Of a stretch of DNA of 38,214 nucleotides, positions 1,640 to 37,182 are shown one piece after another; positions within the stretch are counted from its first letter, which is position 1, and every line of letters begins with the position of its first letter. The notes beneath the pieces are model-generated. The model saw only the letters and a list, made by a program, of their open reading frames with translations, was not told the DNA's origin and did not search any database. Source of the stretch: a bacterium (lineage in GTDB: Bacteria > Zixibacteria > MSB-5A5 > GN15 > FEB-12). Location of the stretch: positions 1 through 38,214 of the forward strand of contig JARGFS010000013.1 of assembly GCA_029211095.1 (NCBI GenBank). Direction: 5' to 3'. Made by a program: the position numbers and the translations under genes.

Positions 1640-4087
1640 ATGAAAACCGTAACCATCCTGCTCGCGACCTTCCTATTCGCAGCCTTTGTCGGCGCCAATG
1701 CCGCCCCGGTGCTGGTAGGAAAAATCACCGATACCGAGGGGCACTCGTTGCCTGCGGTATCAATCACGACCAATCTTCGCGGAATTGGTTCCGTCTCCGA
1801 CAGTAACGGAGAGTTTCTTCTTACCACAGATGATCAGGTCACCCGTGTGACCTTTTCTTCGGTCGGCTTCAAGCCGCGCCAGTTTCTGATTGGCGAAGTT
1901 CCCAAGGTGGTAATTCTGTCACCGATGTTTATCCGGGGGGAGGATATAATTGTAACGGCGGATCGAGCCCAGACCGGTATTAGCTCAGTCGCATTTGAGA
2001 ACCTGTCATCAGATGAACTGGAGCGAGACTACTCGGTCGGTGAGTTGCCGCTGTTGCTGGAGTCAACTCCAAATCTGTACGCTTATTCCGATGCCGGGAA
2101 CTCTCTGGGCTACAGCTATATGCGGATAAGAGGATTCGATGACAAGCGCGTCAGTACTTATATAAATGGCGTTCCGCTCAATGATCCCGAAGATCACGCG
2201 ACCTACTTTGTCGATTTGCCGGACTTTGCGGCCAACGTAGATGACATCCAGGTTCAGCGCGGGATTGGCAATTCTCTTTATGGGGATGCTTCCTTTGGCG
2301 GTTCGGTCAATATTGTGACTTCGCTGTTCAGCCGCCCGCGCCAGACAGTACTGACCACAGGCTACGGCGAGTATACTTCCGATGGAAAATCTATTAGTGA
2401 TATGTACAAGCAGTCGGTGGAGTATGCTTCCGGCCTAATTGATGGACGTTGGTCGTTCGCGGGACGTTTCTCAAAGCAGAAGAGCGGCGGGTATCGTTAC
2501 GGAAGCTGGTACGAGGGTTGGTCATACTATTTTGCGATGGGAAGAGTGGACCCGAAAATGACCACTGAACTGTATGTCTACGGCGGTCCGATGCGGATGC
2601 ATCTGGCTTTCTATGGCGCCGGAAGAGATGCTATCGATGCTGACCGGAGAGCGAATCCATACCTGACCTATGATAATGAAACAGATAATTTCAACCAGCC
2701 GCATTATCATCTGCACAACAGCTACCGACTGAGTGAAACGATGACCCTTTCCAATACGCTTTACTATATCCGAGGCAAAGGGTATTACGAACAGTTCAAG
2801 TCCAAGGCTGACTTTTTTGATTACAATCTCAGTAACCTCAGCGACAGTGCCAGTGGTAATTTGGTACGACAGCAATGGGTGGAAAAGAACCAGTACGGAT
2901 GGAATCCTTCGCTGGTGATAGAACATGATCGGGGAAGTCATTCGTTGGGCGGATCATTTTACTATTTCAATTCCGAACACTGGGGGGCGGTCCCCCGAGC
3001 CGAGTACCTTGATAATCTGAACAACGGTTCCGTCAAATACTATGAATACTTTGGGACCAAGCAGGTTGGTTCCGTACATGTTCAGGAGTATTACCGACTG
3101 AGCGAGCGACTCTCAACTCAGATTACCGCGCAGTTGAGATGGCAGGACTATCAGTTTGATCAGACCAGGATGGGAGCGTTTGCCGGTTATAGCTATGATC
3201 TCAATAACCTCTTTTTCTCTCCCCGCCTTGGTCTTAATTATGATCTGTCGGAAGCGGCGGACCTCTATCTCAATCTCTCCCTCTCCTCTCGCACACCAAC
3301 CGATGGGGCTATTTATGACGCCAACAATCCCAACCGGTTGCCTTCGCTGGAGATTCTGGATCAGACAATTTCCGCCTCGGGAGAGACAGTCACAACTTTT
3401 GGTGACCCATTGGTGAAACCGGAACGAGTGCACAGTTATGAAATGGGGATTTCCCTGGCTGGAGAGAACCGAAGGGGGACGATCAATCTTTTCTATATGG
3501 ACTTCCGTGATGAGATTGTCTCCTACGCCTACATTGACTACCTGATTCACTCTTACAATATTGAACGTTCGGTTCATTCCGGGATAGAGCTGAGCGGTAG
3601 TTACCGAGCTAATGTCGGCTTGACCCTGAGCGGTAATTTTGCATACAATCGCAATAGGGTCATTCGTCACAGCCGGTTGGTGGATGGCATCAACGTCGAT
3701 TTTGCTGACAAGCAGATTGCCGGTTTTCCCGATTATCTGGGAAGTTTGATCGCTGACTACCAGTTGTCGGACTTCCGCCTGACTTACCGATTCCGGTTTG
3801 TTGGTCAGCAGTACATGGAAATGTACAATATTGATGACATCGCGGTTGAAAGCTACAATCTCTCTTCGCTCTCTGTTTCTTACCAATTCGGAGATGTTGC
3901 TGGAATTGGGAAGTTGACCCTGTCCGGACGTATAGACAATCTGTTTGATACCAAGTATGAGTCGTTTGGCTATGGTGACAACTACGCCTACAACGATGGA
4001 TCAAAAGATGTTGTTGAGGGCTGGGCGGAGTATTTTGTTGGAGCCGAGCGATCATTCTGGGGTCAACTGAAAATAGAACTGTTTTAA
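1640..4087 (+). CDS. TonB-dependent outer-membrane receptor with N-terminal carboxypeptidase-regulatory-like domain; predicted thiamine or thiamine-precursor uptake
   Basis: 815 aa, signal peptide, CarboxypepD_reg-like 'GKITDTEGHSLPAVSITTNLRGIGSVSDSNGEF', plug motif 'YMRIRGFDDKRVSTYINGVPLNDPE', beta-barrel C-terminus. Directly downstream of the TPP riboswitch. Confidence 0.9.
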   Translation: MKTVTILLATFLFAAFVGANAAPVLVGKITDTEGHSLPAVSITTNLRGIGSVSDSNGEFLLTTDDQVTRVTFSSVGFKPRQFLIGEVPKVVILSPMFIRGEDIIVTADRAQTGISSVAFENLSSDELERDYSVGELPLLLESTPNLYAYSDAGNSLGYSYMRIRGFDDKRVSTYINGVPLNDPEDHATYFVDLPDFAANVDDIQVQRGIGNSLYGDASFGGSVNIVTSLFSRPRQTVLTTGYGEYTSDGKSISDMYKQSVEYASGLIDGRWSFAGRFSKQKSGGYRYGSWYEGWSYYFAMGRVDPKMTTELYVYGGPMRMHLAFYGAGRDAIDADRRANPYLTYDNETDNFNQPHYHLHNSYRLSETMTLSNTLYYIRGKGYYEQFKSKADFFDYNLSNLSDSASGNLVRQQWVEKNQYGWNPSLVIEHDRGSHSLGGSFYYFNSEHWGAVPRAEYLDNLNNGSVKYYEYFGTKQVGSVHVQEYYRLSERLSTQITAQLRWQDYQFDQTRMGAFAGYSYDLNNLFFSPRLGLNYDLSEAADLYLNLSLSSRTPTDGAIYDANNPNRLPSLEILDQTISASGETVTTFGDPLVKPERVHSYEMGISLAGENRRGTINLFYMDFRDEIVSYAYIDYLIHSYNIERSVHSGIELSGSYRANVGLTLSGNFAYNRNRVIRHSRLVDGINVDFADKQIAGFPDYLGSLIADYQLSDFRLTYRFRFVGQQYMEMYNIDDIAVESYNLSSLSVSYQFGDVAGIGKLTLSGRIDNLFDTKYESFGYGDNYAYNDGSKDVVEGWAEYFVGAERSFWGQLKIELF

Positions 4088-21494: not shown

Positions 21495-21538
21495 ACAATG
21501 AGTGTATAAGAGTCAGAAATTACAAACCATGACTTGAA

Positions 21539-21568
21539 GCGTCCGCCGTTTTGGCGGGCGCTTTTTTT
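21539..21568 (+). terminator. Intrinsic terminator after the DTVxxx lipoprotein gene
   Basis: GCGTCCGCC-GTTTT-? stem pairing with GGCGGGCGC followed by seven T. Confidence 0.88.
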
Positions 21569-21674
21569 GTCCGTTTCCTTATTAATCAAAGAACTGATAA
21601 CTCTGCGGATCATTTTGCCGCGGACTCCGTTATACAGATATGATGAAATACAAAATTCTATCCCGGAGACCAAG

Positions 21675-23810
21675 ATGAAGAAAAGGCTGCTTCTGGCGCT
21701 GATTCTATCTTTTCCAATGAATTCATGCAATGGTGACCCAAAAAAAGAACAGGCTGATAACATGTCGGTAGATACAGAGCATAAACACACTAATCATCTG
21801 ATAGATGAAAACTCCCCCTATCTGCTTTCGCATGCCCATAATCCGGTCAACTGGTATCCCTGGGGGGAAGAGGCGCTTGCAAAGGCGAAGGCAGAAGACA
21901 AGCCGATCTTTCTTTCAATCGGCTATGCCGCCTGCCACTGGTGCCATGTAATGGAGCGGGAGTCGTTTGAAAATGAAGAGATCGCGGCTCTGATGAACGA
22001 AAGTTTTGTTTCCATAAAAGTGGACCGGGAACAGCGCCCCGATCTGGATGAGATTTACATGACGTTCACCCAGGCTATAACCGGGCACGGGGGCTGGCCG
22101 ATGTCTGTTTTTCTTACGCCGGAGCTTAAGCCGTTCTATGCCGGGACCTACTTTCCACCGGAAGATCAGTATGGTCGACCCGGATTCAAAAGCCTGCTCA
22201 GTCAGATTCAGCAGGCTTACGCAAGCGATAAGTCCGGGATAATGGAAGCGGCCAAAAAAATGTTTGTGGAGGTCAGCAGCCGAGTCAATAGTGTCAGTGG
22301 CAGCGCAAGTCTGGATAGAAAGGTGATTGGGCGCGGAGCCGAATCGCTAATGCGCGGATTTGATCACACCTATGGCGGCTTTGGACAGGCGCCAAAATTC
22401 CCGCACACCATGGAACTCTCTCTGTTTCTTCGGTATTACAAAGCTGAAAATGATCCGAGGTTTTTGCAGGCCACCGAGCAAGCTCTCAAAGGGATGGCCT
22501 ACGGCGGTATATATGATCATCTCGGCGGAGGATTCGCGCGCTACTCAACCGATGAACGCTGGCTGGTGCCGCATTTTGAGAAGATGATTTATGACAATGC
22601 CCTCTTGGTGCGGACGTATGCCGAAGCATTCCAGATTACCGGCAACGAACTCTACCGAACCACAATCCGGGAGACGCTCGATTTTATGCTCCGGGAGCTG
22701 CACCATTCCAACGGGGGATTCTATTCCGCTTTAGATGCCGACAGCGAAGGGGAGGAAGGAAAATTCTACGTTTGGTCTCAGGAGGAGATAGAGGCTGTGC
22801 TGGGAAAGCAGGAGGCGGCTGCTTTTATCAGATATTATAATGTCTCATCTACGGGGAATTTTGAAGGGTACAACATTCTGCATTTAACCTCAGCTTCCGA
22901 CCAGGTGCGCCAGGAAGCAGGGGATGGTTTTGACAACTATATCGCCGAGTCAAAACGGAAACTGTTTGAAGCGCGGTCAAAGCGTGTCCGACCACTGACC
23001 GATGACAAGATTCTTACTTCGTGGAACGGCCTGGCCTTAACAGCCCTTTGCCGGGGTTATCAGATAACGGGTGACGACAAATATCTGGAAGCGGCTCGCA
23101 AGAACGCATCTTTTGTCTCGGAAACGATGTTTGAAAATAACCGGCTCACGCATTCCTACCGCGAAGGTCGTCGGTCCGAAGGAGAGTTTCTGGAAGACTA
23201 CGGGTATTATCTATACGGCGTGCTGGACCTTTTTGAATCTGACGGGAACAAGGCCTGGCTTGATTTTGCCGTGACGCTGGCCGACCGGGCCGTTGTGCTG
23301 TTTGCCGATGATGACGGAAAACTGTATCTTCGCCCGGACGGAGAGACAGATTTGATTTATCGACCCAAAGAGCAAACCGATGGCGCCCTGCCAAATTCGA
23401 GTTCATATCTGATTCACAGTCTCTTGCGACTCAATCGAATCACAGAAAATCCTGACTACCTTGAGACTGGCCAAAAATTCCTGAGAGCCCTGTCCGGAAC
23501 TATTAATCAGTATCCTTCGGGGATGACTTCGGCACTCTTTGCCCTGGACTATCATCTGGGGGACAAGCTTGAAATTGTCATCATTGGTTCAGGTCCGGAG
23601 AAGCAGGAAATGCTCAATGAGATTTATCGTCGCTATTTGCCAACAAAGATGGTGGCGTTGAGTGACAGCGGCGATGAGTCGGTGTCCCCTCTTTTCAAGG
23701 GACGCAAGGCCAAGAGCGGCGAGGTTGTGGCTTATGTCTGTGTGAACTCTGCCTGTCAATTACCGGTTAATAATGTCCGGGAGCTAAAAGTGCAATTGAG
23801 CAGGCTATAG
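21675..23810 (+). CDS. Thioredoxin-domain protein of the YyaL/DUF255 (SPATA20-like) family, lipoprotein-type N-terminus
   Basis: '[55 protein letters not shown]'. ORF-track ATG at 21534 lies within the upstream terminator; ATG at 21675 gives [18 protein letters not shown]. Confidence 0.93.
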
Positions 23811-23886: not shown

Positions 23887-24306
23887 GTGGGTAGTTTTGA
23901 TGCAAAAATGAAATGGACCGGGGGATTTAAGTTTGAAGGCATTACCGCCTTTGGTCACAAGATAGTAACTGACGGTGCCAAAAAAGCGGGCGGAGAAGAA
24001 GCAGGCTACAAGCCAACGGAACTACTGTTGTATGGGATTGCAGGCTGCACCGGAATTGATGTGGTACGGGTACTGGAAAAGATGCGCCAAAAAGTAACGT
24101 CTATCGATATCGAAATGACCGCACACCACAATGATGAATATCCCAAACCGATCCACACTATCGATATAAAGTACACTTTTGAAGGGGAAAATCTGGACCC
24201 GTCCAAAGTTGAACAGGCGATCAAGCTTTCCGAAGAAAAATACTGTATGGTCAGTCAGACTGTCCAGCAACCGGGCGAAGTTAAGACCAGTTTTGAGATA
24301 TTGTAG
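23887..24306 (+). CDS. OsmC-family protein
   Basis: 139 aa, 'KPTELLLYGIAGCTGIDVVRVLEKMR' and second Cys in 'EEKYCMVSQTV'; GTG start. Confidence 0.9.
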   Translation: MGSFDAKMKWTGGFKFEGITAFGHKIVTDGAKKAGGEEAGYKPTELLLYGIAGCTGIDVVRVLEKMRQKVTSIDIEMTAHHNDEYPKPIHTIDIKYTFEGENLDPSKVEQAIKLSEEKYCMVSQTVQQPGEVKTSFEIL

Positions 24307-24375: not shown

Positions 24376-24780
24376 ATGAAAGATTTAGTCATGGAATCAC
24401 TGGGACACAAAGTAGAGTCAAACAAATCATTTGAGCAGATATGCGCCGATCTGGAAACAGCCACAACTGAGAACCAGTTTCGGCTGCTGGCCGTTCATGA
24501 TGTTCAGGAGACTCTGGCCGGAAAAGGGTTTGAGCGGGAGCCGCTGAAAATATTTGAACTGTGCAATGCCGGGTTTGCTCATCAGGCCTTGCAGAAACAT
24601 ATTGATGTTGCCATGTTTATGCCCTGCCGAATCACCATCTACCCCGTAGGGGATAAGACAGTGATGACGCTGGCCAAGCCGACTATGATTTCGCAGATGA
24701 TGCCGGGGATTGGTCTGGATGAACTGGCGCAGGATGTTGAGCAGCGGATGATTAAGATAATGGAGACAGCATCAAAGTAG
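24376..24780 (+). CDS. DUF302-family protein
   Basis: 'FEQICADLETATTENQFRLLAVHDVQETLAGKG', 'ELCNAGFAHQALQKHIDVAMFMPCRITIYPVGDKTVMTLAKP'. Confidence 0.85.
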   Translation: MKDLVMESLGHKVESNKSFEQICADLETATTENQFRLLAVHDVQETLAGKGFEREPLKIFELCNAGFAHQALQKHIDVAMFMPCRITIYPVGDKTVMTLAKPTMISQMMPGIGLDELAQDVEQRMIKIMETASK

Positions 24781-24788
24781 GCAGGCCA

Positions 24789-24992
24789 ATGATCAAAAAC
24801 AGATCGATAAAAATTGCCAGCTATATGGTTCTCGGAGGAGTTGCGGGATTTGCTGTCTCATGGCTCTACGGGGCGCTGGGCTCCACTTGACAGATTATGT
24901 GCAATCCGTACATTACATCTGTGTACGGAGCAGTGACCGGTCTGGTTATGGCAATACCGAGTAAGAAGAGGAACGAAGATGCCACTGTTTGA
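24789..24992 (+). CDS. Candidate selenoprotein: DUF6132-like small membrane protein with in-frame TGA (Sec) at codon 34
   Basis: MIKNRSIKIASYMVLGGVAGFAVSWLYGALGST[TGA]QIMCNPYITSVYGAVTGLVMAIPSKKRNEDATV. TGA at 24888-24890; frame stays open and family-like on both sides; ends overlapping the next gene's start by 14 nt. Confidence 0.6.
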
Positions 24993-25191
24993 ATATATAT
25001 GCGCTGATTGCGGCAACGAGTTTGAAGAACTGGTCAGCAGTTCCGAGCAGATAATCAGCTGTCCCAAATGCAACTCGCATAGTGTGGAACGGAAGCTTTC
25101 TGTATTTGCAGCTTCGAGTTCCGGATCATCTTCGTCCATGCCCTTCGGCGCTCCCAGCGCCGGATCATGCGGTAGCGGCGGCTTTACATGA
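24979..25191 (+). CDS. FmdB-family zinc-ribbon protein
   Basis: 'MPLFEYICADCGNEFEELVSSSEQIISCPKCNSHSVERKLSVFA...GSCGSGGFT'. Confidence 0.92.
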   Translation: MPLFEYICADCGNEFEELVSSSEQIISCPKCNSHSVERKLSVFAASSSGSSSSMPFGAPSAGSCGSGGFT

Positions 25192-25286: not shown

Positions 25287-25325
25287 TTTCTAACATGCTA
25301 AATGCGCGGCAGGTCTCCCGCTTGT

Positions 25326-25413
25326 CCTGAGCTTGTCGAAGGGGCCCGCGCGATCTCAGATTATGCGGTGCATGATTCCTATCCGGAGCGAATCACCCTT
25401 CGACAAGCTCAGG
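25326..25413. repeat. Inverted pair of 18-bp repeats (CCTGAGCTTGTCGAAGGG / CCCTTCGACAAGCTCAGG)
   Basis: 25326-25343 is the exact reverse complement of 25396-25413, 52-nt spacer. Confidence 0.88.
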
Positions 25414-25647: not shown

Positions 25648-26028
25648 ATGACCAACTTGTTGATTATAGGTCTTGGTGGATTTATTGGCGCCATTGCACG
25701 CTACGGTATCTCCGGGCTGGTTCAAAGCCGCACCGAATCCCTTTTTCCGTATGGCACGCTGGCGGTAAACCTTCTCGGCTGCCTGATGCTGGGCTGTCTG
25801 CTTTACTTCATCGAAGACCGCGCCATGATTTCTATGAACACCCGTCTGTTTCTGACTGTCGGCGTTATGGGGGCGCTAACGACTTTCTCAACCTTTGGGT
25901 ATGAGACAGTGCAGCTCTTTCAGTATCGTGAGTTCGAAATGGCCATGTTGAATATTGCAGGCAATATTATTCTGGGTGTGGGTGGGTTCTGGTTAGGTCG
26001 GATGATTATGCGGGCGATAAACCTATGA
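25648..26028 (+). CDS. crcB: Fluoride efflux transporter CrcB/FluC
   Basis: 'LLIIGLGGFIGAIARYGISGL', 'PYGTLAVNLLGCLMLGCL', 'GVMGALTTFSTFGYETVQLF'. Confidence 0.95.
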   Translation: MTNLLIIGLGGFIGAIARYGISGLVQSRTESLFPYGTLAVNLLGCLMLGCLLYFIEDRAMISMNTRLFLTVGVMGALTTFSTFGYETVQLFQYREFEMAMLNIAGNIILGVGGFWLGRMIMRAINL

Positions 26029-26037
26029 GGTGTGCTT

Positions 26038-26379
26038 ATGAAAATCGAAGGTGACGGAAAGCTCCTCCGGATTCTGGTTGGAGAGAATGATCGTTGGGAG
26101 GGGAAACCGCTCTGGGAAGCAATAATACTGACAGCGCGGGAACTCGGTCTGGCCGGTGCGACCGCTGTTAGAGGGATCGCCGGATATGGAGCTAACAGCC
26201 GGATTCACACTACCAAAGTGCTGCGGTTGTCAGAAGACCTTCCGGTGCTGATTGAGATTGTCGACAAAGCGGAACGAATTGATACAATTATTCCGCACCT
26301 TGATCGGATGGTGGAAGAGGGATTGATCACGACCGAGAAAGCGCATATCATTGCCTACCGGCACAAGACGGAAGAGTAG
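26038..26379 (+). CDS. DUF190-family protein
   Basis: 'LLRILVGENDRWEGKPLWEAIILTARELGLAGATAVRGIAGYGANSRIHT'; adjacent to crcB. Confidence 0.9.
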   Translation: MKIEGDGKLLRILVGENDRWEGKPLWEAIILTARELGLAGATAVRGIAGYGANSRIHTTKVLRLSEDLPVLIEIVDKAERIDTIIPHLDRMVEEGLITTEKAHIIAYRHKTEE

Positions 26380-36806: not shown

Positions 36807-37182
36807 GGGGGTGACTTGGTTTCGACGGGTTTAGTGGGGGGTTGTCAGCGTGTCGGGGTTGTCTGAGTCCCCGTTAACAAATTGGGCAAAAACAACAATT
36901 GGCGAATCTAATTACGCCATGGCTGCCTAGTATAGTGTAGCCCGTTGCCTGCGATCCGATGCCTTCAGGGTCGCAACGCAGCGCCGTTAAAGAAGGCTCG
37001 GTCTTTAGGTGCCTATACTAAAGACTTAAAATTATTAGGCTGGCCTTGCTGGTTTACTCCGGCTATGCCGGTGGCCTGTTGGTCGGCAGCTTGCGGGGCG
37101 AGAAATTATAGACTAACTACACACGTAGACGGCAACTTGACATTAGATTCGGACGGGGGTTCGATTCCCCCCACCTCCACCA
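36807..37182 (+). ncRNA. ssrA: tmRNA
   Basis: 5' GGGGGUGACUUGGUUUCGACGGG; 3' GGGGGUUCGAUUCCCCCCACCUCCACCA with acceptor pairing GGGGGUG/CACCUCC; tag ORF GCA AAA ACA ACA ATT GGC GAA TCT AAT TAC GCC ATG GCT GCC TAG = AKTTIGESNYAMAA. Confidence 0.97.

Follow-up and report, generated by a model that had tools for sequence, protein, structure and literature searches.

Of the 119 selenoprotein families that a 2026 review catalogues for prokaryotes (PMC13188914), none is DUF6132 (PF19628), a family of unknown function, which is absent from Table 1 of the review. NCBIfam (June 2026) gave no match for any of 24 members of the family described here, and the sole match to 'DUF6132' in the open-access literature was a 2011 paper on EamA (DUF6), an absence that is not proof of novelty. 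The selenoprotein family is not listed in current catalogues. It came to light in a window of 38,214 nt (the whole stretch of DNA that was analysed), in which an ORF on the forward strand (24789–24992) contains an in-frame UGA codon (24888–24890). The best explanation overall, and a very probable one judging from comparative sequence evidence, is a DUF6132-like two-helix membrane selenoprotein whose UGA would be decoded by SelA/SelB/SelC/SelD. The window protein resembles DUF6132 in its size, its G-x-C motif and a profile match that is weak but covers almost the full length, but differs in having Sec in place of Cys and, usually, a second Cys at +4. Since it scores 17.2 bits against PF19628, below the gathering cut-off of 23.2, it is filed as DUF6132-like; a Cys relative of the same class with FmdB downstream (G067) reaches 29.1 bits, over that cut-off. 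The DUF6132 label of the initial annotation is right for the family, although the window sequence alone falls short of it.

The frame specifies 67 residues with U34 (MIKNRSIKIASYMVLGGVAGFAVSWLYGALGST-U-QIMCNPYITSVYGAVTGLVMAIPSKKRNEDATV) and ends in a TGA at 24990–24992. Re-reading it confirmed the earlier description of a frame that is open around a single TGA and overlaps the FmdB gene (start at 24979) by 14 nt. When the read-through product was used as a query against 61 relatives, a homologue was found in 39, and the best match had exactly one TGA inside in 39/39. A profile built from 24 members and run against 135 genomes of the phylum gave matches in 63, with exactly one in-frame TGA in 56 and none in 7, which are more distant homologues. 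Codon-by-codon reading (n = 57) showed TGA in 50 sequences, the window and 49 other Sec forms, and TGT or TGC in 7 Cys forms, at the same residue throughout; in the row of G115, the Cys came to lie on the shared position after a shift by two residues. Two stop-free matches (G004:C337 and G036:C29) were rejected as spurious, having neither the motif nor the shared neighbours. The proposal that the TGA occupies a conserved Cys position was thus borne out, with Cys homologues (7 in the same class, together with L042, L133, and L138) aligning C exactly to TGA. No member within the two main families has replaced the UGA. A nearby Cys in a U-x-x-x-C arrangement had also been pointed out; it is usual in Sec forms, but 8/50 of them lack this second Cys at +4, which therefore is not a fixed partner of Sec. 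On the tree, the Sec and Cys states require two changes, and the Sec form of G113 is placed inside the Cys clade (support 98/81), indicating that Sec and Cys were exchanged at least twice, a point made softer by ~9% contamination of the G113 assembly.

The family extends to a second phylum, that of an Armatimonadetes genome, in which two genomes (G389 and G390) possess DUF6132 Sec forms (24.1–24.2 bits, above the Pfam cut-off) with the TGA lying within G-G-G-U-P-M-T-S-N-P. The same apparently recoded stop persists in 56 related species (genomes) and in these two genomes of another phylum. A search for selA returned 550.8 bits in G389 and did not find the gene in G390. Both of these Sec forms (L135 in G389 and L134 in G390) adjoin groES/groEL, and the differences between them before the UGA are mostly synonymous. 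A scan of named genomes for homologues matched only one Armatimonadetes locus, and selA is lacking from the Armatimonadetes genome that carries a Cys form.

The initial annotation had named the sel genes of the same genome as a check on its reading, and all were present. The window's own genome contains tRNA-Sec (70.4 bits; ARAGORN also calls SeC), selA (512.9 bits), selB (325.7 bits, adjoining selA on the same contig) and selD (381.1 bits), and all four matches exceed their cut-offs. The selD gene itself has one TGA inside (L122, G000:C111:4319-5242), followed by the hairpin GCCAGC-GGT-GCTGGC, and is a useful positive control for the SECIS of the window's organism. Among 39 genomes with a Sec form, tRNA-Sec was over cut-off in 34 and selA in 4 of the other 5; in G001, which is about 85% complete, neither was detected.

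On the forward strand, the ORF is preceded by genes for a DUF255/Thioredox_DsbH protein (21534–23810, start codon uncertain; PF03190, 259.7 bits), an OsmC-like protein (23887–24306; PF02566, 70.9 bits) and a DUF302 protein (24376–24780; PF03625, 55.8 bits), and is followed by an FmdB-type zinc-ribbon protein (24979–25191; TIGR02605, 58.1 bits). These include the redox/thiol-type neighbours recognized earlier (OsmC, DUF302, DUF255). In nearly every Sec locus, as far as the available DNA extends, the genes keep the order OsmC-DUF302-(U)-FmdB on one strand, and DUF255 occurs further upstream in many Sec loci where the contig extends far enough. From the ORF stop to the FmdB start the median gap is 8 nt, with the genes overlapping in 7/52 cases. 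Cys-form loci retain FmdB and, in 4/7, DUF302. Elsewhere in the window, CrcB (fluoride channel family) and then DUF190 are encoded just downstream of the selenoprotein operon (25648–26379), and CTTGTCCTGAGCTTGTCGAAGG occurs as a single exact copy at 25321–25342, where none is expected by chance; this element resembles an interspersed repeat that is widespread among bacterial genomes. A TPP riboswitch (1461–1555) lies upstream of a TonB-dependent receptor-like ORF (1640–4087), which suggests that the latter serves in uptake of thiamin or its precursors, and a tmRNA gene is present at 36807–37182 (Rfam RF00023, 183.4 bits).

Downstream of the TGA, synonymous constraint peaks at 46–60 nt (24933–24947), with z values between −9 and −18 for codons +15 to +19 (consensus GTG-NYC-GGK-GCG-GTC). 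This region of the forward strand forms a distal hairpin (24933–24949) with the core stem GACC (24935–24938)/GGTT (24944–24947) and the loop GGTCT (24939–24943), which we propose as the SECIS apical stem-loop from its synonymous constraint, core pairing and covariation. Across Sec forms it consists of a 4-bp core stem (48–51/57–60) and a loop of GGTGC, GGGGC, or GGTCT. All four core pairs are found in 35/49 Sec forms, as compared to 5.3 ± 2.2 expected from synonymous shuffling with the protein held fixed (maximum of 12 in 500 shuffles). In a DNA alignment, 83.7% of cells across six base pairs were paired and 25 cells had changed on both sides vs. 7.3 in shuffles; covariation was above all shuffles, and every slid register was far lower. 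Because part of the 49–59 covariation coincides with amino-acid changes (Thr/Val vs. Ala/Ala), cleaner evidence comes from the purely synonymous pairs 48–60 and 51–57, which are paired in 41/49 and 44/49 sequences vs. 19.2 and 18.3 expected. The distal hairpin is imperfect in 14/49 Sec forms, and the minimum-energy fold uses other pairings in several sequences. It was looked for in Cys forms and found to be absent; G113, the one Sec form that groups with Cys relatives, is also without it and has another hairpin 25 nt from the UGA with G at loop position 2. Pairing of UGACC (1–5) with 57–61 as a closing SECIS stem was rejected, as it showed no covariation, and RNAalifold run on the whole 60 nt of the main group gave no usable consensus.

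Two hairpins had originally been noted just downstream of the TGA. Both are present at the coordinates given, but the better SECIS candidate is the distal one further downstream. The proximal hairpin of the forward strand (24905–24929; TCCGTACA...TGTACGGA), which separates the UGA from the distal hairpin, folds computationally and may be a spacer or compacting element; as the initial annotation observed, its loop is without an early G. The window's distal loop has G within its first two positions (GGTCT) but is situated 48 nt from the UGA, outside the 16–37 nt of the published model. Some bSECIS elements do not fit this model (PMC13188914), so that the spacing is not a strict requirement. We consider that the distal GG-loop hairpin is probably the SelB-binding SECIS apical loop. 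A two-hairpin SECIS is a proposal to which we give about even weight: SelB would read the GG loop lying at 48 nt, which the variable intervening hairpin would draw near the UGA.

In the proposed mechanism, the cell's SelA/SelB/SelC/SelD system would insert selenocysteine at the UGA, with SelB binding the GG-starting loop of the mRNA hairpin at 24933–24949; actual Sec insertion and SelB binding are what we infer from the sequence patterns. The charge of the window protein is +3.4 before helix 1 and about 0 in the turn, and a single-sequence structure model gives two helices at low confidence (pLDDT 69.6, pTM 0.28). Together, the positive residues and the low-confidence model suggest a two-helix membrane hairpin with both ends cytoplasmic and the Sec turn facing outward. 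The Sec would be located in this short turn between two helices in the inner membrane, where it could exchange electrons or sulfane sulfur with OsmC, DUF302, DUF255, or thioredoxin. At L042 (3001–3609), in the second phylum, a Cys form shares a single open frame with a thioredoxin domain (PF00085, 83.5 bits), and an internal ATG has a possible ribosome-binding site ahead of it, so that free thioredoxin may also be made from this locus. A second such frame, at L133 in another genome of that phylum, was read by eye. On the strength of the thiol-type neighbours and thioredoxin fusions, the role that we favour is an inner-membrane redox relay of the selenol/thiol type, put forward tentatively, at somewhat less than even weight.

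Ordinary gene callers stop at the TGA, and FmdB is encoded closely downstream, as might be expected if the TGA were a true stop that yields a 33-residue peptide and leaves the remainder as a pseudogene or untranslated fmdB leader. However, the frame on both sides of the TGA, the residues and the gene order past it are kept in 56 genomes, and the same C-terminal half is stop-free in Cys forms. The identical TGA in 56 genomes also makes a sequencing error untenable. Close relatives, which had been singled out as a place to look for degradation past the TGA, are intact, and their spacing to the gene that follows is conserved. Relative to a same-genus genome, codon changes past the UGA comprise 6 synonymous and 1 non-synonymous, vs. 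11 synonymous and 13 non-synonymous before it, and purifying selection by this measure acts past the TGA. A true stop is thus extremely improbable, and the product is almost certainly, on these comparisons, the full-length Sec-containing one and not one shortened at the stop codon. Read-through alone does not fix which residue enters, and the UGA might be read as another residue, e.g., as Trp, whether through near-cognate suppression or through an altered code. Against this, homologues that lack the UGA invariably have Cys in its place, Sec machinery occurs in nearly all carriers and a covarying GG-loop hairpin lies downstream. In addition, several ORFs of the family themselves end in TGA, and UGA is therefore not generally reassigned. 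We regard insertion of another residue as very improbable. The selenoprotein reading of the TGA, supported by the U/C alignment, the Sec genes and the intact relatives, is highly likely to hold for ORF 24789–24992.

Compatible with that reading is a different placement of the SECIS, in which the proximal hairpin, within 16–37 nt of the UGA, serves as the SECIS and the distal hairpin is otherwise used, e.g., in coupling to fmdB. Proximal hairpins beat synonymous shuffles over the 45 nt past the UGA, with a mean stability z of −1.79 in 50 Sec forms vs. −0.30 in 6 Cys forms and −0.47 upstream, and the G-loop model is satisfied by 32/50 Sec forms vs. 20–28 in shuffles. In contrast, the proximal stem (18–25/35–42) was rejected as a conserved SECIS, having no common register and weak covariation; the window's proximal loop does not have the early G; and synonymous constraint peaks at the distal hairpin. 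We consider the proximal placement rather unlikely and retain the distal hairpin as the SECIS candidate. With regard to function, the protein might be a minimal protein related to the YeeE/YedE sulfur transporters and might move reduced sulfur or selenium species. It resembles them in its short, glycine-rich helices and in the reactive Cys/Sec located at a turn. YeeE/YedE is also a listed selenoprotein family (PMC13188914). However, hhalign against YeeE of related genomes gave a probability of 0.3%, with a YeeE alignment of only three sequences; YeeE/YedE ancestry was rejected on this comparison, and transport of this kind appears very improbable.

If these readings are correct, the prokaryotic selenoproteome gains a membrane family that spans two phyla and is prone to truncated annotation, and a domain of unknown function acquires a strongly reactive residue and, with it, a testable function. 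A spacing of 48 nt between UGA and SECIS loop, if true, would explain why the family was missed by motif-based searches, and a two-hairpin SECIS would widen the rule of SECIS search programs and imply other missed selenoproteins. Like bacterial selenoproteins with Sec/Cys motifs (UxxC and similar), the family has a UGA on a conserved Cys, Sec machinery and a thiol-redox context; unlike them, it is a membrane protein that has two helices and no thioredoxin fold, in which the spacing is U-x-x-x-C and the Cys is optional (PMC13188914). With YeeE/YedE (PF04143) it has in common that it is a membrane protein with Sec at a conserved Cys, whereas YeeE/YedE is far larger and profile similarity to the window family is absent. 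The distal loop agrees with known SECIS elements in its 5 nt and its initial GG, and the window loop GGUCU is presumably that of E. coli fdhF. It departs from them in that it starts 48 nt past the UGA and a further hairpin intervenes, and the selD hairpin of the same genome, with its GGT loop ~20 nt from the UGA, is unlike it in this respect.
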